Source: Thermothelomyces thermophilus ATCC 42464
Lineage: Eukaryota; Ascomycota; Sordariomycetes; Sordariales; Chaetomiaceae
Length of the DNA stretch: 64,000 nt
Assembly (NCBI RefSeq): GCF_000226095.1
Contig: NC_016472.1
Span: 10,416,001 to 10,480,000 of the forward strand
Reading direction: 5' to 3'
Within the stretch, counting starts at the first letter, position 1. Each line of letters starts with the position of its first letter. Shown one piece after another: positions 651-37,366 of this stretch. The notes beneath the pieces were generated by a model. The model did not search any database, was not told where the DNA came from, and saw only the letters and a program-made list of their open reading frames with translations. The position numbers and the translations under genes were made by a program.

Positions 651-3600
651 ATATAAAGTAGATACCCCTTTAGCCCTAGATCGGTATTATAGATTCGCTC
701 TATCGATTCATAGTACTATAATATAAATATTTTTTTTTCTTTACTAATTTTAGTATTTCTAGTAAGGCCTTCTTTACTATAGTTTTAGTATAATATCGAT
801 TCAAAATATAATTTTCTACGACATTGCTTAGGGCCCTTCCTAGGGCGCCCTTTTCCAGGCCTTTTCTACAGTATTTCGATCGCTATCTTAGGGTATATTA
901 CTATAGTAATACGCTACTCTACCTTCCGTACTTTTCCTCAGGACATATATCCGGGCGTTTTCCGCGGGCGCCCTCTTCCTAGCCTCTTCTCGTACTTCTC
1001 TATACTATATTATAGGCGCTCCGTAGTTATAGTACGTCTCCTAAACTTACGTACTTTACCCTATATATTAGCGATATCTTCCTTATTTACCTACTAGTTA
1101 AATTTAAAGAGCTATCCCTTTTACTTTACTAGGAACTAATAGGTCCTACCATTGGCCTGCTCTACTAAAACTTCCTTAAGCTTCTATTCTTTATTATCCT
1201 TAAGCTCTAGTATTAGTATTTATTCTGCCTAGTTTCGACTATATAGGTGCTATAGTTCGAGTAGGGAAATAAGGAAGATATTATATAACTAGGTATACTA
1301 TATAGGTAATGCTAGCTAATATACTAGCAAACTAACTAGATTAAGTACCTAAAATAGGCCGATAAATTTAGGGGTTAATTTTTTAGGTATCTTTAGCTTG
1401 AGATTCTAGGTCGAGAGTAGGATAAAGTCGCCTCTCCTAAATACCTTTCTCTAATGCTTTTAGTTATAATAAATTTTGTAATTATCGACAGCTTCCTTCT
1501 AATATACTTCTAATTGTTTTTATAGTACTTGTAATTTTCTAATATATTTTACTATACTAGGGTGGTACCTCTCTTTTGGTAAATTGTCTCTGATTTATAA
1601 CGAAATTATAAGGTTATAACCTATCAATATTTAAAAAGGGGGTAGTCTAGTAGTTATATTAATAGTATTATTATATATAAACTCTACTTCTAGAAGAATT
1701 TATACCTAAATTATAGGGTTTATTATAGTAAAATAGCAAAGGTATTATATAAATATTTGGTTACTCTGCTTAATTTGGCTATTGGTTTAGGGGTAAAATA
1801 CTATAGAAAGCCTTCTATTGATATAGTTTAGGTAGTAGAGATCTATTCAAAATTAGGAAGTAAATATAGAGCTATAATTATCTATATAGCCTTCTAGTAT
1901 ACTATATTCAAGTTTAATTTCCTTATAAATTAGTTTAACGAGCTATTAACTTATAATATCTAAGTTAATAGCAAAGAACTAGTTTATTTTAGTATAGTAA
2001 TTTATAACTATAAGTACTATATTCTTTTCTTCTACTTAGAAATTTATTATAGAAAAACCTATAATTATATCTATCTTAATCTTCTACTAGGGTTAATTAG
2101 GGATTAGTAAGGATTCTAAGCTATTATAATTTTAATATCGTCTTAGCTTATTCGTTTAGTAAATGTAGCAGGTTTAGTACCAATGCCTAACATCTCTTAC
2201 TAAGCTTTACTAGTTAAACTTTCTTTAAATAAGTTTACTAGTTCTTTTAGGGCTAAAGTGCCTAGCTCTAATATTATTATAATATAACTAGAGAATTTCT
2301 TACCTTATAGTTTTTTCTGTAGAAACGTAAAGTGCTCTCTTATGGAATAGCTTGCCACTATATCCTAAGGACTATAGTTCGGCTTTGCTAGTACTTTACT
2401 AGCCTTTTATTATACCCTTTTCTAGGCCTTCCCTTACTCTTTAAGTTAAAGGGTCCAATCTTTAGAGCTTTAAAATATACTCTCTAAGTATTTATAATAG
2501 CTAGATAGTAGAAGCTAATTCTAATCTTACCGCCTCTTTAGCCTATCTTTGTAATATAATCGGCTTTCTTTCAAGGTATACTCGTTCTATATCGTATAAT
2601 CCCTTTAGATTGACTTTCAACAACTAGATTCTAATCTAGTATTAAAACGATTATGAAACTCTTTATACTTCTTATACCTCTTTATAGTTTATTATTTTCT
2701 TTTAGATTATAAGTAACTATTCTTAGTTCCCAGGAGGATTATCTTCCTCATAATCTAGTCTTCTTAAAGGGCCATCTATAAGATTTTACTTCCCTAGCTA
2801 GTACTTAATAGTAAAATTAAAGCCTAAGAGATATATATACTATCTAGCTTAGTAACTATTAAGTTAGGTCTATCTTATAAATCTTTATAGATTATTATAG
2901 TTTAAATAGACTATAATTTTATAGGGATTTCCCATTAGATAGTATCACTAGTGCTTAAAGCTTTCTACGATCGCTATCATTTCCTTATTAAGGGTATTAT
3001 AATAGTAAGCTAGTCCTAAGAACTTAGCTAACTAGAACGTAATAGGATGTTTTCAAGAGTCCTTTGCTTGCTATAATAAGATAGCCCCTATTGTAAACGT
3101 AGAAGCGTCTATTTTAATGGTTATCGGCTTTTCGGGATCGAAATGCTAGAGAACCAGCGCTAATTTAAAATGGTTCTTAATTTCTTAAAATACTCCTTAT
3201 TCTTTAAGGTTAAACCGGACTCTTCCTAGTTTCTTCTCTTTATCTAGCCCCTTTAGTAGACTTATTAGGGGGTAGGTAATCTACGAAAAATTATAAATAA
3301 ATTTCTAATGGAAATTAATAAATCTAAGAAATATTTAAATATTGTAATAGGTCTAGGGTTCTAGCTATTTCTCTACTATTTCGATTTATACTAGGTCTAT
3401 TATAATTCCTTGCCGATTTACTATAAATTTAAGGAAGTTAACTTAGTTCTTATAAAATGAATATTTACTAGGTTTATAATATAACTATATATTCTATAGT
3501 TATTTAAGGACCTTTTAGATATATCTTATATATATTTTATAATTAGGTAAAAAAATTAAGATATTATCTAAATAAATTATATAAAATTTGTTAAGTAGTC

Positions 3601-5950
3601 TACCTAATACCTAATAAATATAATTCTAAAAAGTAGCTAACGTATTTATTAGGTTAAATAGTATAACTAGGTATTTAAATAACCCATAGCAAGTTTAAAA
3701 GGCGGTTTTCTACTTATCCCCTTCTTATACTTAAATCTAGTAATAAGCGTCTTTAATATTAAGCTTAGTAAAAAATTAAGCGCTAGAAGTATAGTCAAGA
3801 ATCTCTAAAATAAAGGGTAATAGGTAGTAATTCTTCTAGGTAATTTTGTTAAGCCCTTGGTAATTAATATAAAGGTAAAGGCTCCTATCTCTTTTAAGTA
3901 TAAATAGGACTAGACTAGCCGCTAAACTTTCGAAAGGTCGAATCCTCCCCTTGGCAAGGTTTTTATCTAAGTATTCCTATAATATACTAAGTTTATACTA
4001 GGATAAGGGATAAATTAGTCTGACTAGAGGAATCGTCCTTAATTATAGATCGATTTCATAGTTAATTACTTTAAACGAAGGAAGGATACTCGAATTTAAT
4101 ATATCTATTACGTTAGCAAAGTCTCATAGCTTAGGGGGAATTTCTTCTAGGTTTCCTAAGGGTTCTAGTTCTTCCTCGTTAGGGAATGGATCTATAGGGA
4201 CATCCGAAATAGTAGTTAATATAAAGACCTAGGCTCCTATTTAGCAGTCCTTTTCCATTCCTTTAGGGTGCTAGAGTTAGGCTATTTCGGTTTCTAGTAG
4301 AAACTACTAGCAATTTTCTATTAGAAATAATAAGATAGTAAGATCGCTAGGTATAGGCATTCCTAATAAGACTAGCAAGGTTTTAGTATTATAGTTAATA
4401 GTAATATAAGGGTAATTATATTAATATATAGTTCTATATTTATCGATTAGTATAATTGGTATTTAATATACCTTATAAGATATTATAACTATTTTATTAA
4501 ACTATTAAATTATAGGTAGAATATAAGCAAGTTATTTTAGTTAGTATTTCTAAATAAGGTTAAAGTCTACGATATTTACTTCCATATAAGAATCTAGGTC
4601 TATTATCGTTGAAACGCCTTTTTATATATTTATTATAATAGCTATATATATATATTCCTTTTTTAGGTTATCCCCTATAGCTATTCCTATAATATCAGGG
4701 TCTATCGTAAGCGACTCCTATTTCCCTAGCGAAAATAGCCTAAACCCCAGTACCTAGGGTATTAGCCCTATTAGTAAGAGGTAACTTATACTATTTCTAG
4801 GCAATCGCTTATGAAATATCTTTCCTTTCTATATTAGAAATATAAGCTACTACTCTATATCTTAAGAGTAAAGGTTAACGTAAAGTTTAGGGCGCCTTAT
4901 AAAGCTAACTATAGCTTCGTTATAGGTCTAGTTTGATAGTAAGATAGTAATGTGTAGAAATATAATATATTAGGTATATAATGTAGTTAATCTTAAATCG
5001 GTAGTAAAAAGGAGGTAGTTTAACTATAATTTAGATATTAGAAGCTATACTAGATTTATAATACTAACTATACCATTCCTTTCCATATCTCTAGGCAATA
5101 GGTATAATAATGGTTAATATATTAAATAAGGAAAAGTAATAACTTAATATAAAAGCTTAAAGCTCGGCTTTTCTTATCCTAATAAGGAAACTAAGCTTAA
5201 GAGATTTAAGGTAATAGTAAAGATCCTATAGGGATTAACCATTTCGTTAGTAGGCTAAATTTAAAGCCTTAGCTACCTAGGATACCTAATCCATAAGGTT
5301 AATTATATAGGCATTTATCTATTCTTCGAATAGAGCCTAGTTATTTTCTAGCTAATTACATTCCTTAGGTAATATATTCTAATGATAGCTATACTAGCAG
5401 TTCTAAGGTTACTTATCTATATAATTAAATATAAATAGAATATAATTCTATAATATCTCAAACTACTTAAGGTCCCCCTAAAAAGCGTATTATAAATCTT
5501 AAAGCTACTTTTACTATTACTAATAGGTTATTATATTAATAAATCTAATTAGATTAGTAACCTTAATAGCCTTGGAATAATATCCTAAATCATCAGAATT
5601 GGAGAATTTGATAGGTAATTAAGGTCATTTTAAGGCCTTTATATAGTCTAATAGTCCTAGCTTCTCTAGTAGGAATTTTTCCTAGTCCTATAGCTATTAT
5701 AGCCTTTCTAGCTCCTTAACCTAGCCTTCTAAATTCTAGATAAGCTCTTCATAGTTAGGGCTTTATACTAAGGGCTCCGAATCGGGGGGTATTAGGACGT
5801 AAAGAGGGGGTTTAGAATGGTTTTGTAGCCGATACTAGGCTAAAAGAGTCTCGCTTTAGCTTGAGGGTTCTTCCTCTAGTCCTATAGGCGTTAAATGGCT
5901 AAATGATAGTACTATCTTGATTGACAAAGGGTAAAAGGATCAGAAACCAT
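650..5950 (-). mobile_element. RIP-degraded Ty3/gypsy LTR retrotransposon relic
   Basis: Read on the minus strand, with stops treated as RIP products, this gives a gypsy gag-pol in the normal order. A gag-like segment with an ALFEEWINAY-type motif lies around 5,400-4,700. The pol linker with PIYPLS and a KGRIRP-like start follows around 4,050-3,950. Reverse transcriptase is at about 4,000-3,400, with NIKDAYY-, LFNLINTLATF- and IIYLDNILIF-like motifs. RNase H is around 3,180-2,930 (IKIDASTFTIGAILLQ). I could not resolve the integrase, expected at 2,700-1,200, nor the LTRs. The family differs from the chromoviruses further along: sequence and pol motifs are only distantly alike. It is not functional. 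Confidence 0.75.
3400..4010 (-). pseudogene. Gypsy reverse transcriptase domain (RIP-inactivated)
   Basis: The minus strand encodes the run of RT motifs expected in Ty3/gypsy pol: a lysine/glycine start before IRPF, a YINYQGLN motif (family: VDYRxLN), NIKDAYY with the first catalytic Asp, a FNLINTLATF box (family: FGLxNAPATFQ) and YLDNILIF (family: YxDDIL). The second Asp of the active-site pair is Asn, a G-to-A change typical of RIP. Several TAG/TAA codons interrupt the frame. The segment was once an RNA-dependent DNA polymerase and cannot now be active. Confidence 0.8.
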
Positions 5951-8490: not shown

Positions 8491-8937
8491 TGTAACGAAC
8501 CCAACTTAGACTTCTTCTAAAAGGGTTCAGACGAAGGTAGATTGGGCGGAACCAGCAAACAGGTCGTCTAAGGGATTCGGTAAAGCCAAAAGGTTCACAA
8601 CAACACTGAAGTTGTCTCTTACAATAATTAGTGATGCCTGGTATAAGTACTGTGATTGTAATTGTTACCACTAGTAAACTCCTAGAGTCCACCGAACGAG
8701 TGACTAGCTAGCTATATATATATAATTTGTTTGTCCTTCTTTAATAGTTATTACTAGTACCATTTCTCCTTTCACTCTGTGATTCTGCGTTATCGACAGT
8801 GATATGTTATTATGACTAGTGAAGACCTTAGTCTTGGCGGTGATAATCTTCTGATCGGTTTATCAAGTGATTAGCTGTCGGAATGTCCCGTGTCCTGGCT
8901 ATAGCCTGCTAGGCCGTCTATATGCTTGTCTATAATA
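8491..8937 (-). repeat. 3' LTR of chromovirus A (type A)
   Basis: Plus-strand ends are TGTAACGAAC and TATAATA, the latter being the RIP-altered form of TGTGACA. It matches the LTRs at 15,639-16,085, 29,780-30,225 and 36,921-37,366 along its whole length. A TA-repeat TATA-like box lies at about 8,708-8,722. This copy retains more CpA than the others, so it is less damaged. Confidence 0.9.
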
Positions 8938-9063
8938 CGATGCCCTTCCTTTAAGGCTTTTGACCCGAAAGCCCTCTTAGGCCATTTCAAATAGCGCTAA
9001 CACCTTTTGCTTGTAAGTACTATATTCTTCCTATTTCTATATTGTGGTTACTATATTGATAGG

Positions 9064-9726
9064 ATGCCGATAGAGAAACGGAAGTCGCATTCTATACGTT
9101 ACCGTGCTTCCCTTGCTTAGAACATTACTAAGAACGGTTTTATCGTTATGCCTTGCTCTCGGTATACGTTATAAGGCCTTATCTGTAAAATGATCGTGTA
9201 TACAAAGTATTATAAAGCCTATATCTGTCAAGGTCGTTCTTACAATGGCTCTAGCATCCCGCTTTCTTCCTATAAGTACGTCTTTCTTCTTTTTTTTTAT
9301 TTTTTTAAATATAATTCCTAATATTCGTTCTAGTAGATCGCATTCTCTAGGAGTAGCGTTATATTAAGGATGCTAAATGTCATATCGAACTTAAGCTAGA
9401 TAAGTCCTAACGCCGTCTAGAAGAAGCCTAGCACGAGTTATCCAAAAAGCTTATATGGCTCCGGCGTCTTTATTAGCAGAAGGAGTTTTTGGTAGAGAAG
9501 GGTGCCGACATGGTAGCGCGTGGTCTATCGACCTTGGACGAGTTAGAGGAGGTTAAGCGATAGGAGCGGCAAGAGGTACCTACTATGCCCTCGTCAGAGA
9601 TCAATAATACTACTGATGCTGTCGACTAGGGTGCCGTCTTTGATTCTGTCCTAGGTTTTCCTTTGGTCGATCTAGGTTCTACTAGTGGAACTACTCTAGT
9701 TTCTTAGGGTAATTTAGATTCTTAAC
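9064..9726 (+). pseudogene. Opposite-strand Zn2Cys6-like/coiled-coil accessory gene of chromovirus A
   Basis: Plus-strand frame starting MPIEKRKS, opposite in direction to gag-pol. Exon 1 (9,064-9,271) encodes a cysteine cluster that begins CSR(C)...LICKMI and, compared with copy C, reconstructs as C-x2-C-x6-C-x7-C-x3-C-x6-C. A 62-bp intron (9,272-9,333) has a RIP-altered donor (ATAAGT for GTAAGT), a CTAAT branch site and a TTCTAG acceptor. Exon 2 encodes a Lys/Glu/Leu-rich, probably coiled-coil segment (KLDKS...RRLEEA, ELSKKLIWLRRL) and a short Ser/Gly-rich tail. Stops are CAG/CAA/CGA-type damage. Such proteins occur as hypothetical proteins in many fungi; their role is unknown. Binding nucleic acid is an inference from the cysteine cluster. 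Confidence 0.65.
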
Positions 9727-12700
9727 TAGTTCTTATAAGCTGTCTTCTAGTCTAAAATTAAGCTATTTGACTAGGTACTATAGTTCCCTATTAATAATAC
9801 GTAAATCTAGAATTTCTTTAATGTCTTATTCTTTTTCTTTGTCTTCTACCTTAATGTTTATAGCAACCTTGGCGTTTTTTGGTACTGGTTCAAGAAGTGA
9901 AACATGAAAAACATCTATCCGTAGTCATATAGATGACGGTAATAATAGTCAGTAGTTAGATGTTGAAATTCGTTCTTTGATAACGAAGGGTCTGACCTTT
10001 TTAAAGTCTAGCTTTATGCTTAGTTGTTTGGTTTGTAAGTTCTATACGATTAGGTAGACTTTGTCTCCCCTCTCTAGGTAAGGTCCCTTGAGCCTATATT
10101 TGTCGTAGTAATTCTTTATTCTAGTCTTGATAAACTCGAGTTCCTTTTTAAGCTTCCTATATAGTACGTATATCTGTTCTGCTTTGACTACTGCTCTTGG
10201 TACTATGACCTCTAGTCCTTATCTAAGGTCTGCTTCATATCTATAGTTCGTGAAGAATGGGGTGACCTTGGTTATTTCTGTTAGTAACGTGTTATAAGCA
10301 AGTTATACTATTAGCAATAGTATAACCTAGTTATCTTATTAGTAGTTGATATAAGAATAGAGATACTATTCGACGACTTGGTTTAGTTGCTCTATTTGTC
10401 TATCGGTCTGCGAGTAATATGCTATTGACAGTTTACTATTAATGCCTAATTGTTACATTAACGCTTGCCAGAACTTCAATGCGAACTTGGTATCTCTGTT
10501 AGTAATCCATTCTTACGGCTAAGCATGCACTAATGTAACTTGCTAATAGATTACGTCTACTAACTGTTCCACTGTCTAGGACTCCTTATAGGGGAAGAAG
10601 TATACCTATTTAGTCAGGCGATCTACTATAGTAAGGATGCTATCGTAGATTACTCCTATAGCTATATCCTTAGATTCTAGCAGCTTCGTAATAAAGTCTA
10701 TCGTAACCGAACTCCATGGTTTGTCAGGTATTAGTAGTGGCTAAAGTAGCCTATATAGCTTGTGTCGTGCCGTTTTGCTTCAGTTACAGATGTTGTAGCT
10801 TCGTATAACTTCCTTGACTCTTGTCGTTAACTATAGAAAGTCGTAGTGTTTCTTGACTTGTATAACAGTCTTCGTGACTCCTTTATATCCTCCGAGTTTC
10901 GACTTGTAGAGTTCTTAAATCATTTGTAGCTATTGATCTTTGTCGTAGATATATGCTTTGCCTTGGTACTAGAGTTTCCTATCTCTTTCTTCTACTCCGT
11001 TAGGTACTACTAGTCCGGGTGCCGCTTAATACTATGTCTCGTCGGTCCTTTCTTCTCGGAAGATTATATAACATTCTAAGAATAAGTTAAATAGATTATC
11101 TTCTATAGGTGCCTACATTTCGTAATATAGTATTCCGTCTATCCGTTCCTTAAATAATGGTAGTGTTATTTCTGTCTATTCTTCCGTGTGATCTGTTTGT
11201 CGGCTTAAGGTGTCCGCTCGTACGTTCTCTTTACCCTTCTTGTAGCAGATCTTGAAGTTAAATTCCGCAAGAAATTCTACCTATTATATTTGTCGTCTGT
11301 TAAGCTCCTTTGTCATTATAAAGTATTATAGGTTCTTATAATCTATATATACCTATACTAGTTTAATTGTGCTGCTAAGGTATAGTCGCCATTCCTTAAA
11401 AGCTTTAACAATCGTAAGTAGTTCCTTATTATAGATTAGATAATTAAGATATAGTCTGTCGAGCTTCTTTAAAAAGAAGGCTATAGGATATAGCTTTCCT
11501 TGTCTGTCTCGTTATCCTAATTGTCCTCTAATAGCATAGTCTGAAGCATCCGTTTCTACCTTAAATGGTTTCTTAGGATCTAGCAATACTAGTACTAGGT
11601 CTTTAGTAATGGCATCACGGATCTATATAAATGCTTGCTCGTATTACCCTTCCTATTAGAATTTAGTATTCTTCTTAGTAAGTTCGTACAAAGGTCGTAC
11701 AATCGCTCTAAAGTTCCTAATGAACATTCGGTAGAAGTTTGTAAATCCGATGAAGCTTCGTACTTCCATAACTATTATTAGTTATAGCCAATTCTTGATA
11801 GCTTTAACCTTAGAAGGTTCTATCTGAATTTGTCCTAGGGATATTTTATACCCTAAAAACACCGTTTTCCTAACGTGGAATTCGCTCTTTTCCTTGTTAA
11901 CTGATAGTTTATATATATATAGCGTGTCTAGTACTACTTTTACGTACTTCTAGTGTTCGTCTATCATCTTAGAGAAGATAAGTATATCGTCAAGATAATA
12001 TACCGTAAATTTGTCAAGAAAGGGTCAGATAGCTTGATCAATCAGGGCTTAGAACGTTACTGGCACGTTTGTAAGTCCGAATAGCATAACGAGGTACTTG
12101 TAATAGCTATAGGGTATCCTAAAGGCCGTTTTCCACTTGTCGCCTTCTTTGATCCATATATGATTATAGGCCGATGGCAAGTCAAGATACGTGAAATATT
12201 AGGCTCCTGCTAACTAATCTCGGAGCTATAAGATTAGTAGTAACGGGTATCGGTTTTTCATAGTCTATTCATTAAGTTGCCAATAGTTAACATATAACTA
12301 TAGCTTTCCGTCCTTCTTAGGCATAAATAGGATTAGGTAGCCTGCTAGCGATGTCAACAGGTAGATATACCCTCTTCAAAGGTTCTCCTCCAAATATCGC
12401 TTAAGTTCTTCGTTTTGCATTTAGCTCGTATAGTAAATCTTAAAGAACTTTAGTCGTGCTCCTTCCTTAAGCTTGATCTTATAATCCTATAGGCCATGTT
12501 CTAGTAGTCCTTCTAGATATTTCGGTTCGAATGCTAGGTATCCTTTGTATTCCTTTGGTACTTCCCTAGTCTTGTCTCGTCTCTTAGTTTTCTAATAGTA
12601 TACGAACTTGGTTCTGTCTATAGCGATACTAGCGATTTCTCTTATCTTGACCTATTACTCTAATTACAATGCTCTACATTTATTAACGGAGAGAATAGCT

Positions 12701-14000
12701 ATCGGCGGTTTGGCTTATTCCTCCTATTATATCGTTATTATCGTTTTACTACTTCTTCTAGAGTCTGTAGTGGTCTATCTACTACTGCTCGTCTCTTACG
12801 GTAGATCTATAAGACATGCCTTCCCTTAAGCATTGTCTATTCGCGATCCTTGTATACTCCCTATCTTGCTAGTCAAATATAACTCCATTCGGGGTCGTAG
12901 GTAGCTACTATTCTTCTAGTTAATGTCTAGGTCGTAATCTTCATACTATAGTAACCCTAATATTATATCTTTATTATCGCCTATATCTACGATGTTAAAT
13001 ACGACTATTATAGTCTTTCTTACTATAGTAATATTAATCGGTTTGGTCTCTCTATATACCTATTATGTCAGAAATGGTCCTTTGACTATACTATGCTTCT
13101 ACTTCATTCTCTAGAGTATCTATAGCTAATTTACAAGCGTCGGCGAAATCAGGTTTATCTCTGCTCTACTGTCTACTAGTACAAGCATTTCGTGCTGTTT
13201 CTATTATGCTGTTATCTATAGTCGCTTATCGTGCCGTCGTCATCTAAAGATCGTAGCGACTTCCTATATTTCTGCCGGGAGGTCCTAAGATAGTGGTCTC
13301 TTGCGGCAGTTCCTCCTATACTATGCTATTACTCGCCACTATGCAGGCGTTAATGGTTTTCGGGCCCCTTGAAGGGCCCTAACCCATTTCCTAGGTTAGT
13401 ACTAACCTCTTTAGTTATTTAGCTAATAGTAGCTTCGTCAATTATACTTATCTCTATAAGCCATTAGGTACTTATAGTTTCCTACTATTAGGTCTATTCT
13501 GCTTTCTATCGTACGTACCATAGCTTTATCTAAAGCTCCTAAATTCGCAATTTCTTTTCGTCTACGTAATAAAGGTAATCGTTACTCCAGCATAAGTCCT
13601 ATATATCTCGTCCCATTCTATAGTACCTAGGCTAGGCCCGTTTTGGAACTATCGTAATGCTTTCTAGACTCTAGTCTTTAATCTTCTAGAGCAATTCGGC
13701 CGCTCTATTTCCTACATCGTAGACCTATTCCACAGGGCGTAAGCTTCCGTCCTCATTTTCTTGTCAGGTCGGCCAGTAGTTGTTCTCGAATTTATCGCGG
13801 AAGTGGTATCGGCATTTGTATGCTATATACTAGAACTAGGGCACTTACATATGTGCCTCGTGTCGAGGGTATAGTCGCGTGGCGTTGCCTAGGAGGTATT
13901 GGAATTCTCTCCTAAATCCTTCCCACTGTATGTAGACCGTAGGTACTCTAATGCTAAGGTAGGAGTGTTTCTTCTAGTAGCTTTCCTATATATGCTTGTC
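9650..14000 (-). pseudogene. Chromovirus A Pol polyprotein (PR-RT-RH-IN-chromodomain), inactivated
   Basis: Domains in minus-strand order: aspartic protease near 13,200-13,120 (LVDSRAEINLISP; family VDSGA); reverse transcriptase about 12,420-11,850, with MPKKDGKL, a YxNYWQLN-like motif and an intact YLDDILIFS at 12,004-11,973; RNase H about 11,600-11,250; integrase about 11,120-10,060; and a C-terminal chromodomain at about 9,850-9,700 (DIKEILDLRIINREL-YLVK-LNF-LEDS-E). The chromodomain places it among the chromoviruses, whose integrases are guided to modified histones. Many in-frame TAG/TAA codons from RIP make it non-functional. Confidence 0.85.
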
Positions 14001-14389
14001 TTTTCCGCAGTTCGCGTATATAAACTAATATTCTAGGTTCTATACGTCATTACTAAGTTGCTAATCGTCAAAATACTTGGTATAGATATCAGGTCTATTA
14101 TATACTATAAGCTGTTTTCCTTTAATAGTTTCTATAATATATTAAAGTTCCCTCGTCTTGTCCCTTATCTCGTTACTCTATTAGGCAAGTTAAGTCAAAC
14201 GTTTATCCTGTTCATGTAGTTCCATATTAAGCCGGAAAACTTCGTTATAGTACCCTTTGATTTATTCCTAGAGGAATAGAATATTAGGTCTAGGTCTTTC
14301 GGTTCCTTAGGTATCGGTTGTCTACGATCTATCCTACCTCTATATAATTATAAAACCCCACTGTCTCAAGGCTAGGAGAGTCGAAATTA

Positions 14390-15611
14390 GTAGTACGTAC
14401 TCTCCGGCCGTGTCCTATTCGGCAAGACCTATCTCTAGGTCTATAGTAACTAGTTCAGAGTATAGTACTTGTCCGTCTTCTCTATTGCCATCGTGTCCGA
14501 AACTGTCTATGTCGCTATCCTTGTCTTCGTAGCTCGTGGCTACTATTTTGGTAACGTTCTTGGTGGTTTCGTCAATATCTGCGATTTCTTTTCCAGGGAC
14601 TAGCTTCCACTCTTTCTTCGGGCTTCGACATTCTCGCTTATAGTGCCCTTTCTTTCTACAGTTATAGTAGATAATATTAGACTTGTCTTTGGTCGTCTTC
14701 TTCCGGTCCTGCTTCTACGCTATATCTATATCTATAGCTCCAGGGTACGTCCTATATAAGGTACTAGCGTACGTTCGTTTTTTCTTGTCGTTAGCTTTAA
14801 CTATGGTTCCGTTTATTCGACCTCGTTTCTACTACTCTCGTATATAGAGCCGATCATCAATTCTGATAGCCTGTACGATATATTTATCTAGAGTCTTAGG
14901 CCGATTATACTTATATAGCTTGTCTTTAACCTTTTTCTTTAGGCCGTTATAGAACAATTATATTAATACCTTATCGTTAAGCTAAGACTTAAATATGTCC
15001 TATCTAAACTATATAGCGTAGGAGGCTACTAACTTAGTCTATCAGAGATTAGTAAGTCTTTCTTATATATTAATTTTCTTGTCTTTGTCGCTAAAAACCT
15101 TCCGAAGCTCTTCTTCGAAACGGTCGTAGGACTAAAAGACTACCTATATAAACGCGTCTTAGTCGTCTTTATCTTCCTTAGTAAGATAGTCATTCTATAT
15201 AAGCTCGAACCATCTAAGTACCTTGCCCTCTAGTCTCGTAACTATATAAAGGACTTTAGCTTTATCATCTAGGAACTTGTTATTATTAATCCAGAAATAG
15301 GATCAGAGGTTTATTAAGAATTCTATAAGATCCTCCTTAGTTTCTCTATATTTGCTAGGTAGTTCGATCTTGATACGGCTTACTTTAATAGCCTCAAGTG
15401 TCTCGATTTTGGCGTAGGCCTCGTTAATTAATTTCTACGAATACTTTTTACCGTTCTCGAGTTCCTTGATTCGAGCTTAAGCAGCCTTATCTCTCTAGTC
15501 CAACTCCTAGATCTGCTGCTAGAGTTAACAAAGCTAAGCGAGCAGTTATTCGGCCGTAACGTTGGTAGCCATATCGGTATCGAGGTCGAGGTTACCTCCG
15601 TTCTGAACCAT
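14390..15611 (-). pseudogene. Chromovirus A Gag, inactivated
   Basis: The frame starts at an ATG at 15,611 (MVQNGGNLDLDTDMATN), just inside the 5' LTR. It continues through a Gln/Leu-rich helical segment (LLAQLCQLQQQI-like after undoing Trp/Gln stops), a capsid-like region (SRIKIELPSKYRETKEDL...) and a CCHC zinc knuckle at about 14,680-14,630 (YYNCRKKGHYKREC). These are the expected parts of a retrotransposon nucleocapsid protein. Stop codons of the TAG/TAA type interrupt it. Confidence 0.8.
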
Positions 15612-15638
15612 GACAGAACAAAGGGAGTGGTAATAACG

Positions 15639-16085
15639 TGTAATAAACCTAACTTAGACTTCTTCTAAAAGGGTTCAGATGAAGGTAGATTAGGCAGAAC
15701 TAGTAAGCAGGTCGTCTAAGGGATTTGGTAAAGCTAAAAGGTTTATAATAATACTAAAGTTATCTCTTATAGTAATTAGTAATACCTAGTATAAGTACTA
15801 TAATTGTGATTATTACTACTAGTAAACTCTTAGAGTCTACCAAACGAGTGACTAGCTAGCTATATATATATAATTTGCTTATCCCTCTTTAATAGTTATC
15901 ATTAGTACCATTTCTCCTTTTACTCCGTGATTCCGCGTTGTCAACGGTGACATGTTATTATCACTAGTGAAGACCTTAGTCTTAGCGGTGATAATCTTCT
16001 GATTGGTTTGTTAAGTGATTGGCTGTCGGAATGTCCCGCGTCCTGGCTATAGCCTGCTAGGCCGTCTATATGCTTGTCTGTGACA
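15639..16085 (-). repeat. 5' LTR of chromovirus A (type A)
   Basis: Ends are TGTAATAAAC and CTGTGACA on the plus strand. It is full-length and homologous to the LTR at 8,491-8,937. The base after it (16,086) is the interior of element D, in the pol region antisense to copy A around 12,830, showing that this LTR end inserted into D. Confidence 0.9.
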
Positions 16086-19000
16086 ACGATGCTTAGGGGA
16101 AGGCATATCCTATAGATCTACCGTAAGAGACAGATAGTGGTAGACAGACTACTATAGACTCTAGAAGAGGTAGTATAACGATATTAATATCGCGATAGGA
16201 GGAACGAGCTAAACCGCCGATAGCTATTCTCTCCGTTAACGAATACAGAGCACTATAATAGGAGTAGTAGGTTAAGACAAGAGAAATCGCTAGTATCGCT
16301 ATAGACGGAACCAAGTTTGTATACTATTAGAAAACCGAGAGACAAGACAAGACTAGGGAAGTACTGAAAGAATATAAAGGATACCTAGCATTTGAACCGA
16401 AGTATCTAGAAGGACTACTAGAATACGGCCTATAGGATCACGAGATCAAGCTTAAGGAAGGAGTATAACTAAAGTTCTTTAAGATCTATTATATAAGCCA
16501 GACTTAGAACGAAGAACTTAAGTAATATTTGGAGGAAAACCTTTAAAGAGGATATATCTGCCTATTAATATCGCTAGTAGGCTACCTAATTCTATTTATA
16601 CCTAAGAAAGACAGAAAGCTATAATTATATGTTAACTATTAGTAACTTAACAAATAGACCGTGAAAAACTAATACCTGTTACCGTTAATCTTATAGCTCC
16701 GAGATTAGTTAACAAGAGCCTAATATTTTACATGTCTTAACTTGCTATCGGCCTATAACTATATATAGATCAAAGAAGGCAACGAGTGGAAAACGGCCTT
16801 TAGGATACCCTATAGCCACTACAAGTACCTTGTTATGCCATTCGGACTTATAAATGCGCTAGTAACATTCTAAGCCCTAATTGATCAAGCTATCCGACCC
16901 TTTCTCGACAAATTTACAGTATATTATCTCGACAATATACTTATCTTCTCTAAGATAATAGATAAACATCGGAAGCATATAAAAGCAATGCTAGACACGC
17001 TACACGTATACAAACTATCGGTTAACAAGGAAAAGAGCAAATTCCACATTAGGAAAACGGTGTTTTTAGGATATAAGATATCCCTAGGACAAATTTAAAT
17101 AGAACCTTTAAAGGTTAAAGCTATTAAGAATTAGCCATAACTAATATTAGTCACGGAAGTACAAAGCTTCATTAGATTTACAAACTTCTACCAGATATTT
17201 ATTAGGAACTTTAGAGCGATTATACGACCTTTATACAAACTTACTAGAAAGAACGCTAAATTCCAATGGAAAGAATAGTACAAGCAAGCATTTACGTAGA
17301 TCTGCGACGCCATTACTAAAGATCTAGTACTAGTACTACTAGACCCTAAGAAGCCATTTTAGGTAGAAACGGACGCTTTAGACTACGCCATCAGAGGATA
17401 ATTAGGATAACGAGACAGACAAGGAAAGCTATATCCTATAGCCTTCTTTTTAAAGAAGCTCGATAGACTATGTCTTAATTATCTAATCCATAACAAGGAA
17501 CTACTTGCGATTGTCGAAGCTTTTAGGGAATAGCGACTATACCTTAGTGGTACGATTAAACTAGTACAAGTATATATAGATTATGAGAACTTATAATACT
17601 TTACAATAATAAAGGAACTTAATAGACAACAAATACAATAGGTAGAATTCCTTATAGAATTCAACTTTAAGATCTACTATAAGAAGGGCAAAGAGAACAT
17701 ACGAGCAGATATCTTAAGCCGATAAACAGATTATATAGAAGGATGAATGGAAATAATACTACTATTATTTAAGGAACAAATAGATAGAACGCTATATTAC
17801 AAAACGTAGACACCTGTAGAAGATAATCCACTTAACTCGTTCCTAGAGTATTACATAATCTTTCGAGAAGAAAGGATTAACGAGACGTAGTATTAAGTAA
17901 TACCTAGACTAGTAGTATCTAATAGAGTAAAAGAAAGAGATAGGAAACTCTAGTACCGAGGCAAAGCATATATCTACGACAGGGATCAATAGCTATAAAT
18001 GATTCGAGAACTCTATAAGTCGAAACTCGGAGGATATAAAGGAGTTACGAAGACTATTACATAAGTTAAGAAATATTACGACTTTCTATAGTTAATGGTA
18101 CGAGTTAAGGAAGTCGTATAAAACTACGACATCTATAATCGAAGCAAGATAGTACGATATAAGCTATATAGGCTACTTTAGCCATTGCTAATAGCTAATA
18201 AACTATAGAGTTTAGTTACGATAGACTTCATTACGAAGCTACTAGAATCTAAAGACACGGCTACAAGAGTAATCTACGACAGTATTCTTACTATAGTAGA
18301 TTGCCTAACTAAATAGGTATACTTCTTTCCCTATAAGGAGTCCTAGACAGCGGAATAGTTAGTAGACGTAATCTATTGGCAAGTTACATTAGTATATGCT
18401 TAGCCATAAGAATAGATTACCGATAGAGATACCAAGTTCGTATCAAAGTTCTAGCAAGCGTTAATATAGCAATTAGGCATTAATAGTAAGCTATTAATAG
18501 TATATTACCTATAGACTAATAGACAAATAGAGCGACTAAACTAAGTTATTAAGCAATATCTCCGTTCTTATGTTAACTACTAATAAGACGACTAGGTCAT
18601 GCTATTACCAATAGTATAACTCGCTTACAATATAATACTAACAGAAACGACCAAAGTCATACCGTTCTTCGCGAACTATAGATATAAAGCAGACCTTAGG
18701 CAAGGACTAGAGGTCATAGTGCCAAGAGCAGCAGTCAAAGCGGAACAAATGTACGTACTATATGAAAAGCTCAAAAAAAAACTCGAGTTTGTCAAGACTA
18801 GAATAAAGAACTACTACGACAAATATAGGCTCGAGGGACCTTACCTAGAGAGGGGAGACAAAGTCTACCTAATCGTATGAAACTTACGAACCAAATAACT
18901 AAGTATAAAGCTAGACTTTAAGAAGGTCAGACCCTTCGTTATCAAAGAACGAATTTCGACATCTAACCACTAACTATCGTTACCGTTATCTATATAACTA

Positions 19001-19280
19001 TAGATGGATATTTTTCATATTTTACTTCTCAAACCAGCACCAAAGAACGCTAAAGTTGCTATATATATCGAAGTAGAGAACAAAGAGGAAGAATAGGACG
19101 TCAAAGAAATTCTAGATTTACGTATTATTAATAGGGAACTATAGTACCTAGTTAAATAGCTTAATTTCGGACTAGAAGACAACTTATAGGAACCTGTTAA
19201 GAATTTAAACTGCCCTAAGAAACTAGAACAGTTCTATCGGCAGAACCTAGATCGGCTAAAGGTAAACCTAGGATAGAACC
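16086..19280 (+). pseudogene. Chromovirus D Pol, 5'-truncated and RIP-inactivated
   Basis: The plus frame includes a pre-RT segment, reverse transcriptase (about 16,500-17,100), RNase H (about 17,330-17,720), integrase (about 17,880-18,900) and a well preserved chromodomain at 19,095-19,270 (DVKEILDLRIINREL, YLVK, LEDN, EPVKNLNCPKKLEQFY). The second catalytic Asp of RT is Asn. Numerous TAG/TAA codons fit RIP. The chromodomain end overlaps the 3' end of an opposite-strand gene at 19,197. Confidence 0.8.
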
Positions 19281-19790
19281 AAAAATAGTGCCCTAGTTAA
19301 TAACGTTAACGCTACTATTAAGTTATATAACGGCCCCTGATTCCTGCTATTCTACCGCCTCTAATTCGTCTAGATTCGACAAACCCTGTATAACTATATC
19401 TGCCCCCTTCTCTACTAGGAACTCTTATTATTTATAGACCCGAGTTAGACGGGCTAACGCCTTAGAAGCTTTATATTAATATTCTTATAACAAGGCTTCG
19501 GCCTCTTTCTCTTTAGCCTTTAAACGACGTTACTCGCGTATAATACAATCTACTACGTCATAATCAGAGACATGCTCTCGTAAGGAAATAGAAACTTACA
19601 AGAAGAAACTAGAACACCGGAACTATTATAAGCACAACCCTAACGTACGTAAGCCTTACAGTGACGAGATTTTTTAATCATTTTATATACTTGGTTATAC
19701 TCTACGTAATAGGAACATACCATCATTACGAACCCGTAATCAGAAATAAACTAAGCTAAACACTTACAATAAATAGATACTAGGGATCTA
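19197..19790 (-). pseudogene. Opposite-strand Zn2Cys6-like/coiled-coil accessory gene of chromovirus D
   Basis: Minus-strand counterpart of the genes at 9,064-9,726 and 30,351-31,008, diverged in sequence but with the same plan. The N-terminal part keeps CLAQFISDYGFVMMVCS. Undoing RIP-type Tyr-for-Cys changes gives C-x2-C-x6-C-x8-C-x2-C-x6-C, the spacing of GAL4-type zinc clusters. The intron (19,599-19,553, 47 bp) has an intact GTAAGT donor and a TAG acceptor at the same position as in the other copies. Exon 2 is charged (RRLKAKEKEAEALL) and ends with the shared EFLVEKGAD, LDELEAVE and GSILGFTLADLGS blocks. The start codon is not clear. The function is unknown. Confidence 0.6.
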
Positions 19791-19936
19791 TACGCGTTAG
19801 ATAGTATAATTGACAGTACGAAGGGTAACAAGGGGCTAAAGAGAAAAATACGTACAAGGAATACAAGGGATGTTAGCGCTATTTAAGACGACCTAAAGAG
19901 GGCTTTCGGGTCAAAAGCCTTGGAGGGAGGGCATCG

Positions 19937-20360
19937 TATCACGGAAATATATATATAGATGCCGCCTGAGCCACTAGCACAAATGGGCTAATCAAGTCGA
20001 AGGAACGAAAGGACTAATTACAATATAGGAAGCATAGTGATCACTACGCTTACCAGTGATCAGGGTAATCACCACCATACGATCACTTACGATCACCGTG
20101 ATTAGGAATAATCACTAGAATTATATATATATGTAGATAGTCACTTGTTACGGTAGACTCTAAGAGTTTACTAGTGATAGCAACCCTTATAATCATAGTA
20201 CTTATACCAAGCATCGTTGTTGACTACTGTGAGAGACAACTCTAGTGTTGTTGTAAACCCTTTGGCTTCACTAAATCCCTCAGACGACCTGCCTGCTTGT
20301 CCCGCTCAATCTACCTTCGTCTAAACCCTTTTAGAAAAAGTCTAAGTTAGGTTCGTTACA
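19937..20360 (+). repeat. 3' LTR of chromovirus D (type B)
   Basis: Begins TATCACGG (RIP form of TGTCACGG) and ends GTTCGTTACA. Its second half matches the type-A LTRs, but its first half (U3) is unrelated to them. The U3 carries repeated GATCAC/AATCAC motifs at 20,036-20,115, followed by a TA-repeat TATA-like box near 20,120-20,135. The same LTR type flanks element F at 25,450-25,877. Confidence 0.88.
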
Positions 20361-23300
20361 ATTACGTCTGCTAACTATTTAGCTATCTAGAACTCTTTAT
20401 AGGGAAAGAAGTATACCTATTTAGTTAGGCGATTTACTATAGTAAGAATACTATTGTAGATTACTCCTATAGCTATATCCTTAGATTCTAGTAGCTTTGT
20501 AATAAAGTCTATTATAACTAAACTCTATAGTTTATTAGCTATTAGCAGTGGCTAAAGTAGCCTATATAGCTTATATCGTACCGTTTTGCTTCGATTGCAA
20601 ATGTCGTAGTTCTATACGACTTCCTTAACTCGTACCGTTAACTATAGAAAGTCGTAGTGTTTCCTAACTTGTACGACAGTCTTCGTAACTCCTTTATATC
20701 CTCTAAGTTTCGACTTATAGAGTTCTTAAATCATTCGTAGCTATTAATCCCCGTTATAGATATATACTTTGCCTTAGTACTAGAGTTTTCTATCTCTTTC
20801 TTCTACTTCGTTAGGTACTACTAGTCTAGGTGCTACTTAATACTATGTCTCGTTAATCCTTTCTTCTTGAAAGATTACGTAATATTCTAGGAACGAGTCA
20901 AGTAGATCATCTTCTATAGGTGTCTACGTTTCGTAATGTAACGTTCCGTCTATTTGTTCCTTGAATAACGGTAGTGTTATTTCCGTTCGTCCTTCCGTGT
21001 AATCCGTTCGTCGGCTTAAGATGTCTGCTTATACGTTTTCTTTGCCCTTCTTATAGTGGATCTCAAAGTTAAATTCTATAAGGAATTCTGCCTATTGTAT
21101 TTGTTATCCGTTAAGCTCCTTTGTCGTTATAAAGTATCGTAAATTCTTGTAATCTATATACACTTGTACTAGTTTAATTATACCGCTAAGGTATAGTCGC
21201 CATTCCTTAAAAGCTTTAATAATTACAAGTAGTTCCTTGTCGTAGATCGGATAATTAAGACGTAATCTATTAAGCTTCTTTAAAAAGAAGGCTATAGGAT
21301 GTAGCTTTCCTTATTTGTCTTGTTATCCTAATTATCCTCTAATAGTATAGTCTAAAGCGTCTGTTTCTACCTCAAATGGCTTCTTAGGATTTAGTAATAC
21401 TAGTACTAGATCTTTAGTAATAATATCGTAGATCTACGTAAATGCTTGCTCGTACTATTCTTCCTATTAGAATTTAGCGTTCTTCTTAGTAAGTTTATAT
21501 AAAGGTCGTACAATTGCTCTGAAATTTCTAATAAACATCCGGTAGAAGTTTGTAAATCCGATGAAGCTTTATATTTCTATAACTAACATTAGTCATAGCT
21601 AATTCTTAATAGCTTTAACCTTTAAAGGTTCCATCCGGATTCATCCTAAGAATATTTCGTATCCTAAAAACACCGTTTTCCTAATATAGAATTCGCTCTT
21701 TTCCTTATTAACTAATAGTTTATACGTATATAGCGTGTCTAGCACTGCTTTTACGTACTTCCGGTGTTAGTTTATTATCTTAGAGAAGATAAGTATATTG
21801 TCGAGATAATATACCGCAAATTTATCGAGAAAGGGTCGGATAGCTTGATCAATTAGGGCTTAGAACGTTACCGGCGCGTTCGTAAGTCCGAATAGCATGA
21901 CGAGGTACTTATAGTAGCTATAGGGTGTCCTAAAGGCCGTTTTCTACTCGTCGCCTTCTTTGATCTATATATAGTTATAGACCGATGGCAAGTCAAGACG
22001 CGTAAAATATTAGGCTCCTGCTAACTGATCTTCGAGCCGTAAGATTAGCGGTAACGGGTATCGGTTTTTCACGGTCTATTTATTAAGTTACTTATAGTTA
22101 ACGTATAACTATAGCTTTCTATCTTTCTTAGGCACAAATAGGATTAGGTAGCCTACTAGCGATGTCAATAGGTAGATATGTCCTCTTTGAAAGTTCTCCT
22201 CCAAATATCGCTTAAGTTCTTCATTCTATATCTAGCTTATATAATAGATCTTAAAGAACTTTAGTCGTACTACTTCCTTAAGCTTAATCTTGTAATCCTA
22301 TAGGCCGTATTCTAATAATCCTTTTAGATGCTTCGGTTCGAATGCTAGGTATCCTTTATATTCTTTTAGTACTTCCCTAGTTTTATCTTGTCTCTTGGTT
22401 TTCTAATAGTATACGAACTTAGTTCTATCTATAGCGATACTAGCGATTTCTCCTGTCTTAACCTACTACTCCAATTATAGTGCTCCGCATTTATTAACGG
22501 AGAGAATAGCTATCGGCGGTTTGGCTTGTTCCTCCTATTACGATATCGATATCGTTGTACTGCCTCTTCTAGAGTCTATAGTAGTCTATCTACTACTATC
22601 CGTCTCTTATAGTAGATCTGTAAGATATACCTTCCCTTAAGTATCGTCCGCTCGCGATCCTTATACACTCCCTATCTCGTTAGTCAAATACGACTCCGTT
22701 TAGGGTCATAGGTAGCTACTATTCTTCTAGCTAATGTCTAGGTTATAATTTTTATACTATAGTAACTCTAATATTATATCTTTATCGTTACCTATATCTA
22801 TAATACTAAATATAACTATTATAATCTTTCCTACTATAGTAATATCGATTGGTTTAGTCTCTCTATATACTTATTACATCGGAAATGGCCCTTTGACTAT
22901 GCTATGCTTCCGCTTCATTCTCTAGGGTATCTATAGCTAATTCACAAGTATCGGCGAAATCAGGTTCATCTCTACTCTACTATCTACTAGTACAAGTATT
23001 TCGTGCTATTTCTATTATACTATTATCTATAGTCGCTTGTCTTACCGCTATTATCTAAAGATTACGGCAATTTCCTATGTTTCTGCCGGGAGGTCTTAAT
23101 ATAGTAGTCTCTTACGCTAGTTCCTCCTATACTATGCTACTACTTGCCGTTACACGGGCGTTAATAGTTTCTAGGCCCCTCGAAGGGCCCTGACCCGTTT
23201 CCTAGGTTAGTGCTAACCTCTTCGGTTATTTGGCTAATAGCAGCTTCGTTAATCGTGCTCATTTCCGTAAGCTATTAAGTGCTTACAGCTTCCTACTATT

Positions 23301-25422
23301 AAGTCTATTCTGCTTTTCGTTATATATACTATAGCTTTATCTAAAGCTCCCGAATTCGCAATTTCTTTTTATCCGCGTAATAGAGGTAATCGTTGCTCTA
23401 GTATAAGTCCTATATATCTCGTCCTATTCTGTAGTACCTAGGCTAGGCTCGTTTTAGAACTATTATAATGCCTTCTAGATCGTAGGCTTCGATCTTCTAG
23501 AGTAATTCGGCCGCTCTATTTCCTATATCGTAGACCTATTCTATAGGGCGGAGGCTTCTGTCCTCATTTCCTTGTCAAGTCGGCCAGTAATTATTTTCGA
23601 ATTTGTCGCAGCAGTGATATCAGCATTTGTATACTATACATTAGAACTAAGGCACTTGCATATATACCTTATATCAAGGGTATAGTCACGTGACGTCGCC
23701 TAGGAGGTATTAGAATTCTTTCCTAAATCCTTCCTACTATATATAGACCGTAGGTACTCTAATGCTAAAGTAGGAGTGTTTCTTCTAGTAGCTTCCCTAT
23801 ATATGCTCGTCTTTTCCGCGGGTTGTATATATAAACTAGTATTCTAGGTTCTATACGTCGTTACTAAGTTACTAGTCGTCAAGGTACTTGGCGTAGCTAT
23901 TAGGCCTATTATATATTATAGGCTGTCTTCCTTTAATGGTTTCTACAATATGTCGGAGTTTCTTTGTTTCGTCCCTTATCTTATCGCTCTACCAGGCAAG
24001 TCGAGTTAAGCGTCTATCCTATTCGTATAGTTCCGTGTTAAGTCGGAAAACTTCATTGTAGTACCATTTAATTCGTTCCTAGAGGAATAGAACATTAGGT
24101 CCGGGTCTTTCGATTCCTTAGGTATCAGTTGTCTACGATCTATCCTACCTCTATATAACCATAAAACCCTACTACCTTAAGGCTAGGAGAATCGAAATTA
24201 GTAGTGTATATTCACCTACCGTATCCTATTCGGCAAGACCTATCTCTAGGTCTATAGTAACTAGTTTAGAGTACGGTGCTTGTTTATTATTACTATTACT
24301 ATTATATCCAAGACTATCTATATTACTACCCCTGTCTTCGTAACTCGTGGCCGCTACTTTGATGACGTCCTTAGTAGTCTTGTCGATAACTATAATTTCC
24401 TTTCTAAGGACTATCTTCTACTCTTTCTTTAGGTTTCGACATTCTTGCTTATAGTGCCCTTTCTTTCTATAGTTATAGTAGGTAATATTAGACTTGTCTT
24501 TAGTCGTCTTCTTCTAGTCCTGCTTTTACGTTACATCTATATCTATAGCTTTAGGGTACGTTCTATACGAGGTACTAACGTACGCTTGCTTTTTCTTGTT
24601 ATTAGCCTTAACTATAGTTCCGTTCATTTGACCTCGTTTCTACTACTCTCGTATATAGAGTTAATCATCGATTCTAATAGCCTATATAATATATTTATCT
24701 AGAGTCTTAGGCTAATTATACTTATATAGCTTATCTTTAACCTTTTCCTTTAAGCTATTATAGAATAGTTATATTAATGCCTTGTCGTTAAGCTAAGACT
24801 TAAGTATATCCTATCTAAACTATATAGTATAGGAGGCTACTAACTTGGTCTATCGGAGATTAGCGAGTCTTTCTTATATATAAATCTTCTTGTCTTTGTC
24901 ACTAAAAACCTTCTAAAGCTCTTCTTTGAAACGGTTATAAGATTAAAAGACTGCCTACGTAAATATATCTCGGTCGTCTTCGTCTTCCTTAGTAAGGTAG
25001 TCATTCTATATAGGCTCGAACTATCTAAGTGCCTTACCCTTTAGTCTTATAGCTATATAGAGAACTTTGGCTTTGTTATCCGGAAACTTGTTATTATTAA
25101 GCCAGAAGTAAGATCAAAGGTTTATTAGGAATCTTATAAGATCCTCCTTAGTTCCTCTATATTTGCTAGGTAGTTCGATCTTAATGTGGCTCGCTTTAGC
25201 GCCCTCGAGTGCCTTGATTTTGGCATAGGCCTCGTTAACCAGTTCCTACAAGTTCTTTTCGCCGTTCTCGAGTTCCTTAATTCGAGCTTAAGCAGCCTTA
25301 TCTCTCTAGTCTAACTCCTAGATTCGCTAATAGAGTTAACTAAGCTAGGTAAACAGCTATTTAGCTATAACGTTAGTAGCTATATCGATGTCAAAGTCAA
25401 AGTCACCTCCGTTCTGAACCAT
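20361..25422 (-). pseudogene. Chromovirus F Gag-Pol, 3'-truncated and RIP-inactivated
   Basis: The gag frame starts at an ATG at 25,422 and ends near 24,200, with the CCHC knuckle near 24,480-24,430. Protease is near 22,990-22,920. Reverse transcriptase is about 22,260-21,680, with the YLDN/DILIF region at 21,818-21,787. RNase H is about 21,420-21,080 and integrase about 20,960-20,361, where it is cut. The sequence is nearly collinear with copies A and C. TAG/TAA codons are frequent. Short open frames on the opposite strand here are shadows. Confidence 0.8.
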
Positions 25423-25449
25423 GATAGAACAAAGGAAGTGATAGTAACG

Positions 25450-25877
25450 TATAACGAATCTAACTCAGACTTCTTTTAAAAGGGTTCAGACGAAGGTAGA
25501 TTAAGCGGGACAAGTAGGCAGGTCGTCTAAGGGATTTGGTAAAGCTAAAGGATTTATAACAATACTAGAGTTGTCTCTTATAGTAATTAGCAATACTTAG
25601 TATGAGTACTGTAATTGTAGGTTACTATTACTAGTAAACTCTTAGAGTCTACCGTAATGAGTAACTATCTATATATATATATAATTCTAGGATTACTAGC
25701 AGTCGTGGTGATCTCCTATACTGGCTTACCTGGCTTATGTCGTGAGCTAGTGATCCTCTACTAGGATTATTTTTTACTAAGTGTGATCCTGTCCTGATTA
25801 GTCTATTACTCCTTTGGCTTGATTGGCCTGTTTGTGCTAGTGGCTTAGGCGGCATCTACATATATATTTCCGTGACA
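25450..25877 (-). repeat. 5' LTR of chromovirus F (type B)
   Basis: On the plus strand it starts TATAACGAAT and ends TTCCGTGACA. The first about 240 bp match the type-A LTRs and the remainder matches only the LTR at 19,937-20,360, in inverse orientation. A TA-repeat lies at about 25,668-25,682. The LINE continues directly after it. Confidence 0.88.
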
Positions 25878-29779: not shown

Positions 29780-30225
29780 TATGACGAACCCAACTTAGAC
29801 TTCTTCTAAAAGGGTTTAGACGAAGGTAGATTAAAAGGGACAAGCGGGCAGGTCGTCTAAGGGATTCGGTAAAGCCAAAGGGTTTACAATAACACTAGAG
29901 TTATCTCTTACAGTAATTAGTAATACTTGGTATAAGTACTGTAATTATAATTGTTACCACTGGTAAACTCCCAAAGTCCACCTAACGAGTGACTAGCTAG
30001 CTATATATATATAATCGTCTATCCCTCTTTAATAGTTATTACTAGTACCATTTCTCCTTTTACCCCGTAATTCCGCGTTATCGATGGTGACATGTTATTA
30101 TCACTAGTAAAGACCTTAATCTTGGCGGTAATAATCTTCTGATTAGTCCGTCAAGTGATTGGCTATCGGAATGTCCCGCGTCTTGGCTATAGCCTGCCAG
30201 GCCGTCTATGTGCTTATCTGTGACA
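29780..30225 (-). repeat. 3' LTR of chromovirus C (type A)
   Basis: Starts TATGACGAAC and ends CTGTGACA on the plus strand, matching 36,921-37,366 along its whole length. A purine-rich tract on the coding strand (plus 30,226-30,243) adjoins it on the inside, as expected of a polypurine primer. Confidence 0.9.
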
Positions 30226-30350
30226 CGATGCCTCTCCTTAAGGCTTTCGACCCGAAAGCCCTCTTAGGCTGTTTTAAATAGTGCTAATACCCTTCGCTTG
30301 TAAGTATTATATTCTTCTTATTTCTGCGTTATAGTTGCTATATTGATAAA

Positions 30351-36893: not shown

Positions 36894-36920
36894 AATAGAA
36901 CAAAGGGAGTAGTAATAACG

Positions 36921-37366
36921 TGTGATGAACCTAACTTAGACTTCTTCTAAAAGGGTTTAGATAAAGGTAGATTAAGAGGGACAAGTAGGTAGGTCGTCTA
37001 AGGGATTTGGTGAAGCTAAAGGGTTTATAATAATACTAGAGTTATCTCTTATAGTAATTAGCAATACTTAGTATAAGTACTATAATTGTAATTATTACTA
37101 TTAGTAAACTCCTAGAGTCTACCTAACGAGTAACTGGCTAGCTATATATATATAATTGTCTATCTCTCTTTAATAGTTATTACTAGTACTATTTCTCTTT
37201 TTACCCTATGATTCCGTATTGTCGATGGTGATATGTTATTATTACTAGTAAAGACCTTAGTCTTGGTGGTGATAATCTTCTGATTGGTCTGTTAAGTGAT
37301 TGGCTGTCGGAATGTCCCGTGTCCTGGCTGTAGCCTGCTAGGCCGTCTATGTGCTTATCCGTGACA
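36921..37366 (-). repeat. 5' LTR of chromovirus C (type A)
   Basis: Starts TGTGATGAAC and ends CCGTGACA on the plus strand. It is 446 bp, the same length as its partner at 29,780. It ends about 410 bp before the start codon of the hydrolase gene. Confidence 0.9.

Follow-up and report, generated by a model that had tools for sequence, protein, structure and literature searches.

The 64,000-nucleotide window analysed here (C1:10416001-10480000) lies in the 38.7-Mb, seven-contig genome of Thermothelomyces thermophilus ATCC 42464 (Sordariales, Chaetomiaceae) and contains three related copies, A, C and D, of a long terminal repeat (LTR) retrotransposon that carries a spliced gene on the strand opposite to pol. 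The main new point is that this antisense gene and the U3 region of the LTR differ jointly, as one block, between elements that are otherwise nearly identical. Copies A (8491-16092, LTRs 8491-8943 and 15639-16092) and C (29784-37366) are whole elements on the minus strand; D (16086-20364, plus strand) is truncated at its 5' end. Their identity over common parts is 84.8-86.6%, and nearly all differences between A and C, and between A and an open copy elsewhere in the genome (L061), are transitions (2.4 kb compared), the pattern of repeat-induced point mutation (RIP). The gene host is a chromodomain Ty3/gypsy element: the L061 pol has the chromovirus order of protease, reverse transcriptase, RNase H and integrase with a C-terminal chromodomain, matching Asp_protease_2, RVT_1, RT_RNaseH, Integrase_H2C2, rve (30.4 bits, below the cut-off of 32.6) and Chromo (residues 1190-1238 of 1264).

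Gene borders in the three copies were projected from a natural open copy. In copy A the gene occupies 9064-9725 on the plus strand, with exon 1 at 9064-9271, an intron at 9272-9333 whose donor reads AT instead of GT, and exon 2 at 9334-9725; in copy C it lies at 30351-31008, also on the plus strand (projected exons 30351-30558 and 30617-31008). The gene of copy D, of another type (t3), is on the minus strand at 19197-19807, with exon 1 at ~19807-19600, an ATG no longer present at the projected start, exon 2 at 19552-19197 and, located by string search, a 47-nt intron between them (19599-19553, minus strand). A preliminary description of the window had given matching limits for the start in A, both ends in C and the stop end in D, and slightly different ones for the stop end in A (9726) and the start in D (19790). 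The common plan that it proposed, a cysteine cluster, an intron, a coiled-coil part and the EFLVEKGAD and LDELE blocks, is seen in all three copies, interrupted by RIP stops, as is its contrast between an intact GTAAGT donor in D and an altered one in A and C, which read ATAAG at the spot where open copies read GTAAG. The distance between the start of the gene and the inner LTR edge is ~125 bp, and its end lies inside pol; the proposed overlap with the end of the chromodomain is seen in L061, where the antisense open reading frame (ORF, 1483-1881) and pol (1763-5554) share 119 bases, stop codons excluded, spanning the end of the Chromo domain and the pol tail.

The antisense gene in A, C and D is more than a chance frame. 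Raw exon 2 of copy A, with X at stops, matches eight database proteins with E from 3e-44 to 9e-9, and three of the eight are gene models from the T. thermophilus genome itself. That the open frame might be an artefact of RIP or of constraint on pol gains some ground from the RIP damage that makes the frames in A, C and D hard to read, but copies free of stops exist, other species have intact proteins, and 155 of the 196 codons in L061 lie outside pol; we find this explanation scarcely credible.

Searching the genome with a relative from Canariomyces (P0002) gave at least 161 matches. At the best 30 of these 161 protein matches (L031-L060), the gene was followed directly by an opposite-strand pol and had the R-U5 part of an LTR on its 5' side in 30 of 30 cases, so that the association with elements that the preliminary description wished to see checked holds for this sample, which was picked by protein match and covers gene-bearing copies. 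Among the matches listed, 18 copies have no stop in exon 2 (at C2:2525856, C5:3737957 and 16 other places), and the other copies listed carry stops. Exon 1 is identical in all 18, exon 2 has two forms (17 copies and one), the intron has nine lengths (66-80 nt) and the spliced frame ends after 196 amino acids in 18 of 18; in the six copies compared, the change in intron length sits in a poly-T tract. Because frame-breaking length change is confined to the predicted intron, this intron is well supported. Nine 9-kb stretches were examined, six of type 1 (L061-L064, L068 and L069) and three of type 2 (L065-L067). All six type-1 elements have LTRs that are 99.8-100% identical and a 1264-amino-acid pol ORF, and five have a 767-amino-acid gag ORF; the three type-2 elements have LTRs that are 98.3-100% identical and broken gag-pol frames. 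Exon 1 shows a 12-nt difference between L061 and L065/L066 with the intron phase unchanged. The gene is thus carried by recent insertions, and the 18 stop-free copies suggest a recent burst after or outside RIP. All nine stretches also have a donor-like site shortly 5' of the start codon (GTGAGT in L061-L064 and L066-L069, GTAAGT in L065) and an AG just 3' of that codon (L061 1098-1223, L065 1143-1264, oriented), possibly marking an intron in the 5' untranslated region or an alternative start.

RIP produces transitions, and transversions are therefore not its products. Transversions were counted in the antisense frame outside the pol overlap, against a null of equal use of the three codon positions that ignores base composition. 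Codon positions 1, 2 and 3 carry 47, 28 and 68 transversions between L061 and L066 (p 2e-4), 31, 18 and 47 between L061 and D (p 0.0014) and 38, 27 and 47 between L066 and D (p 0.07). In exon 1 of L061 and L066 nonsynonymous divergence (dN) is 0.49 against a synonymous divergence (dS) of 2.03; in the other pre-overlap comparisons dS is undefined, as at saturation. The codon bias supports coding, and the reading as a spliced, element-encoded protein with a Zn2Cys6-like cluster that has been under selection is well supported: there are copies without stops and intact relatives, the intron varies in length, and changes are unevenly spread over codon positions. Alternatively, the antisense RNA could be the functional product, forming double-stranded RNA with the pol end that feeds RNA silencing, a proposal that fits the real overlap with pol and the antisense silencing suggested for plant elements (PMC7264820; this and the other papers cited by PMC number were available in part). 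It would leave the conservation of cysteines and coiled coil and the codon-position bias unexplained, and we consider it very improbable.

In the 196-amino-acid product of the open copies, a Zn2Cys6-type cluster is followed by a long coiled coil, then by a block resembling RGxxMVxRGLxSLDELEE and a tail resembling VDWxAVF. Its cysteine spacing, C-x2-C-x6-C-x8-C-x2-C-x6-C, had been reconstructed from damaged sequence and is read directly in stop-free copies, including the open L061 frame, and in the relative P0013. The Zn2Cys6 family (PF00172) has a spacing range of C-x2-C-x6-C-x5-12-C-x2-C-x6-8-C, within which this spacing falls. Because the Pfam score is below the cut-off, we call the protein Zn2Cys6-type without filing it as a PF00172 member; UniRef names five relatives (P0013, P0043, P0070, P0075 and P0086) "Zn(2)-C6 fungal-type" despite such scores. 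Pfam searches with raw exon pieces gave no match, and in sequence searches of the PDB no chain was recognised as Zn2Cys6 (best E 0.34 and 0.019). A structure model of the relative P0042 has a mean predicted local distance difference test score (pLDDT) of 84.3, and the two best Foldseek rows obtained with it are Pho7-DNA complexes. Eight of the ten VIA rows listed are HAP1, Pho7, Leu3 or PPR1, all Zn2Cys6 factors, as the PPR1 title itself states; families beyond the rows listed may match as well. The spacing suggests a Zn2Cys6-type, DNA-binding-like protein.

Viewed at the protein level, many Sordariomycetes have intact relatives, and so does Pseudogymnoascus (P0054). The tails of the gene models P0008 and P0023 (both Corynascus similis) and P0013 (Chaetomium globosum) match the pol region read in antisense, with E 2e-11, 3e-8 and 0.001, respectively, and P0070 (Staphylotrichum tortipilum) ends in a similar tail, as judged by eye. 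No relative was found in viral-contig scans with P0042 and alignment A2. Four annotated proteins of the T. thermophilus genome match the family (MYCTH_105130, MYCTH_71551, MYCTH_79143 and MYCTH_69995); each looks like a piece of the transposon gene. Some annotated "Zn(2)-C6" genes of Sordariomycetes may belong to transposons.

Four types of the gene share one backbone: t1 (A, C, L061 and its close relatives), t2 (L065-L067), t3 (D) and t4 (L070), represented by 67, 3, 2 and 1 of the 73 sequences typed; in the letter-level comparison t3 is D alone and t4 is L070 alone. Per-site transversions between types amount to 0.001-0.004 over the final 1 kb of pol (928-1067 sites compared), at most 0.009 for R-U5 (where t4 contributes 75 sites) and 0.014-0.042 for the polypurine tract (PPT) and leader. 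The values are 0.15-0.31 for U3, 0.22-0.29 for exon 1, 0.20-0.32 for the part of exon 2 that precedes pol and 0.008-0.124 where gene and pol overlap. A comparison of L061 and L066 over the whole element gives the same picture, with transversions scarce all the way from the tail of pol to the LTR at the other end. The preliminary description had read D as a diverged copy in which frame and intron position were kept by selection; selection on the protein stands, while slow divergence does not, since gene and U3 of D are of another type on a shared backbone. The variable blocks have one border close to R in the LTR and the other in the tail of pol. These are places expected of template switching between two packaged RNAs, and we infer that the blocks are exchanged during reverse transcription by two such switches, one at each border. 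A template switch has also been offered for the U3 of crapaud (PMC10787394). In a protein tree the four types occupy four positions apart from each other, each alongside proteins from other sources; four changes are required by the starred branches, although several forks have weak support and D carries a flag for its letter make-up. Either the types would be older than the species, with backbones since made uniform, or they would have come by horizontal transfer.

The U3 next to the gene lies at approximately 8704-8938 in the 3' LTR of copy A, beside the 5' end of the gene, at 29993-30226 in that of copy C and at 19936-20140 in copy D (borders projected). U3 of all four types has a TATA tract and two CCAAT boxes, which read CTAAT in D; an array of half-sites lies between boxes and tract. 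ATCAC/GTGAT occurs 5, 6, 9 and 4 times in U3 of t1, t2, t3 and t4 (A and C, whose U3 borders the patterns did not match, are left out), against shuffle means of 0.57-0.81, and 1, 0, 0 and 7 of 1000 dinucleotide shuffles reach these counts; the shuffle figures serve as a guide only, because the motif was chosen after the sequences were seen. U3 of t2 has three ATCAC-N10-GTGAT dyads with a 34-bp period, the same in all three t2 copies; half-site spacers are 11 twice in t3 and once in t4 and 23-24 in t1, with further t3 pairs at 25 and 1. For inverted arms with a common spacer, an excess over shuffles is seen in t2 (0 of 1000) and, at an arm length of 6, also in t4 (6 of 1000); U3 of t1 and t3 show none. 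Half-site density is 16-19 per kb in the LTR and 1.8-1.9 in the element body (L061 and L066). Between the variable blocks, a 70-bp leader beside the PPT (L061 1098-1168, oriented; window copy A ~8939-9010) is conserved in all four types and forms a perfect hairpin, GGCTTTCG-GGT-CGAAAGCC, in t1 (L061) and t2 (L066). Plus-strand priming, packaging and a promoter for the antisense gene are possible roles.

The simplest joint account of these observations, to which we give slightly better than even odds, is that the accessory gene encodes a Zn2Cys6-type regulator beside its own operators. Transcription of the gene would come from the 3' LTR, on its U3 side. Its product would dimerise via the coiled coil and, by binding paired ATCAC/GTGAT half-sites in the part of U3 that separates the CCAAT boxes from the TATA tract, would set the level of sense transcription. 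The preliminary description had raised an element-encoded regulator as one possible role; we adopt it as the best, if conjectural, reading of the sequences. Three results weigh against it. The PF00172 gathering score was not reached (11 of 25 members match at E <= 1, the best at 19.5 bits against a cut-off of 21). CGG-type pairs are not enriched in leader and LTR, where 470, 353, 445 and 305 of 500 mononucleotide shuffles reach the observed counts. U3 of t2, t3 and t4 are related and that of t1 is unrelated to them, whereas exon 2 is closest between t1 and t3; because these relationships conflict in part, gene and U3 can part, which speaks against a strict cassette. The lack of CGG enrichment would suit a real protein whose action lies elsewhere: it could serve the integration complex as a nuclear tether or targeting factor, or work on chromatin or host genes, with the U3 arrays binding host factors. 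Zn2Cys6 proteins commonly act on host promoters, and the end of the chromodomain in pol is overlapped by the gene. We think this unlikely, as the half-site arrays are concentrated in the LTR and U3 varies between elements together with the gene. The partial conflict would also fit a passenger gene, selected formerly or weakly and exchanged as the pol-tail-to-R interval recombines often, with U3 diversity stemming from host factors or element competition; U3 subfamilies on a common internal region are described in crapaud (PMC10787394) and Tnt1 (PMC1838419) with no accessory gene invoked in the parts available. Codon constraint, the spliced open frame in all 18 copies selected for a stop-free exon 2 and the intact relatives in other species speak against a passenger, which we rate as rather less likely still.

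A stronger version of the regulator reading, that gene and U3 array form a cassette of self/non-self control in which each type's protein reads its own U3 sites, is doubtful but deserves mention. It resembles the repressor-operator immunity regions of phages: types would coexist on one backbone since they do not cross-regulate, and template switching would reshuffle them. If true, such a cassette would explain the old, sharply bounded U3 subfamilies of such elements.

Elsewhere in the window, A, D and a further element, B (20361-25686), adjoin at 8491-25695, with BLAST ends overlapping by 4-7 bp. Because B has no 3' part and D no 5' part, a nested insertion with deletion is possible there. GC-rich islands (mostly 50-72%) with long ORFs at 37500-49500 and 56400-64000, flanked by AT-rich blocks, are likely host genes.

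The usual view is that LTR retrotransposons depend on transcription factors of the host. With its wide occurrence, its intron and its change along with U3, the antisense zinc-cluster gene points to elements that may bring their own transcription switch, and offers a candidate cause of U3 subfamilies such as those of crapaud, left open in the available part of PMC10787394.

Antisense genes as such are known from other elements. Pseudogymnoascus, source of P0054, and Botrytis are both Leotiomycetes, so that the Botrytis gene brtn, reportedly described by Zhao et al. in 2011 (Virology 417:248), may be of the same family. It is the antisense gene that precedes the 3' LTR in Boty, a fungal chromodomain element of Botrytis cinerea (PMC7264820, PMC8365987, PMC4227169, PMC5987419), and is likened here by description. 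Plant elements likewise have antisense ORFs between pol and the 3' LTR, namely Grande gene23, RIRE2 and Retand TRP28 (PMC11963269, PMC7264820); TRP28 is predicted to bind DNA and the gene23 product is nuclear. Exchange of type together with U3 is not mentioned in the parts of these two papers available. Retand differs in belonging to a non-chromovirus lineage and in its domain (PF04195). In the available parts of the literature on antisense ORFs and U3 subfamilies, we found no description of zinc-cluster identity, intron, family breadth or a link of gene type to U3 type, nor of any zinc-cluster antisense gene in a fungal LTR element, brtn being known only through citing papers.

Tnt1, a copia element, and crapaud of Podospora resemble the present elements in a variable U3 on a constant body, and differ in that no antisense gene is described in the parts available. 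In crapaud, a chromodomain element, U3 subfamilies on a conserved R-U5 and internal region predate the species complex, and the word "antisense" occurs 0 times in the paper (PMC10787394); Tnt1 similarly has a variable U3 on a conserved R-U5 and internal region (PMC1838419). The HBZ gene of human T-cell leukaemia virus 1 (HTLV-1) is also named in PMC11963269. Like GAL4-type factors (PF00172), the present protein has a six-cysteine spacing followed by a coiled coil, with paired half-sites in its presumed target; it differs in its Pfam score, in ATCAC/GTGAT instead of CGG half-sites and in being encoded antisense by a mobile element. HBZ is likewise an antisense gene at the 3' LTR that encodes a nuclear regulator, but it is a bZIP protein rather than a zinc-cluster one and belongs to a retrovirus; the likeness is one of arrangement.
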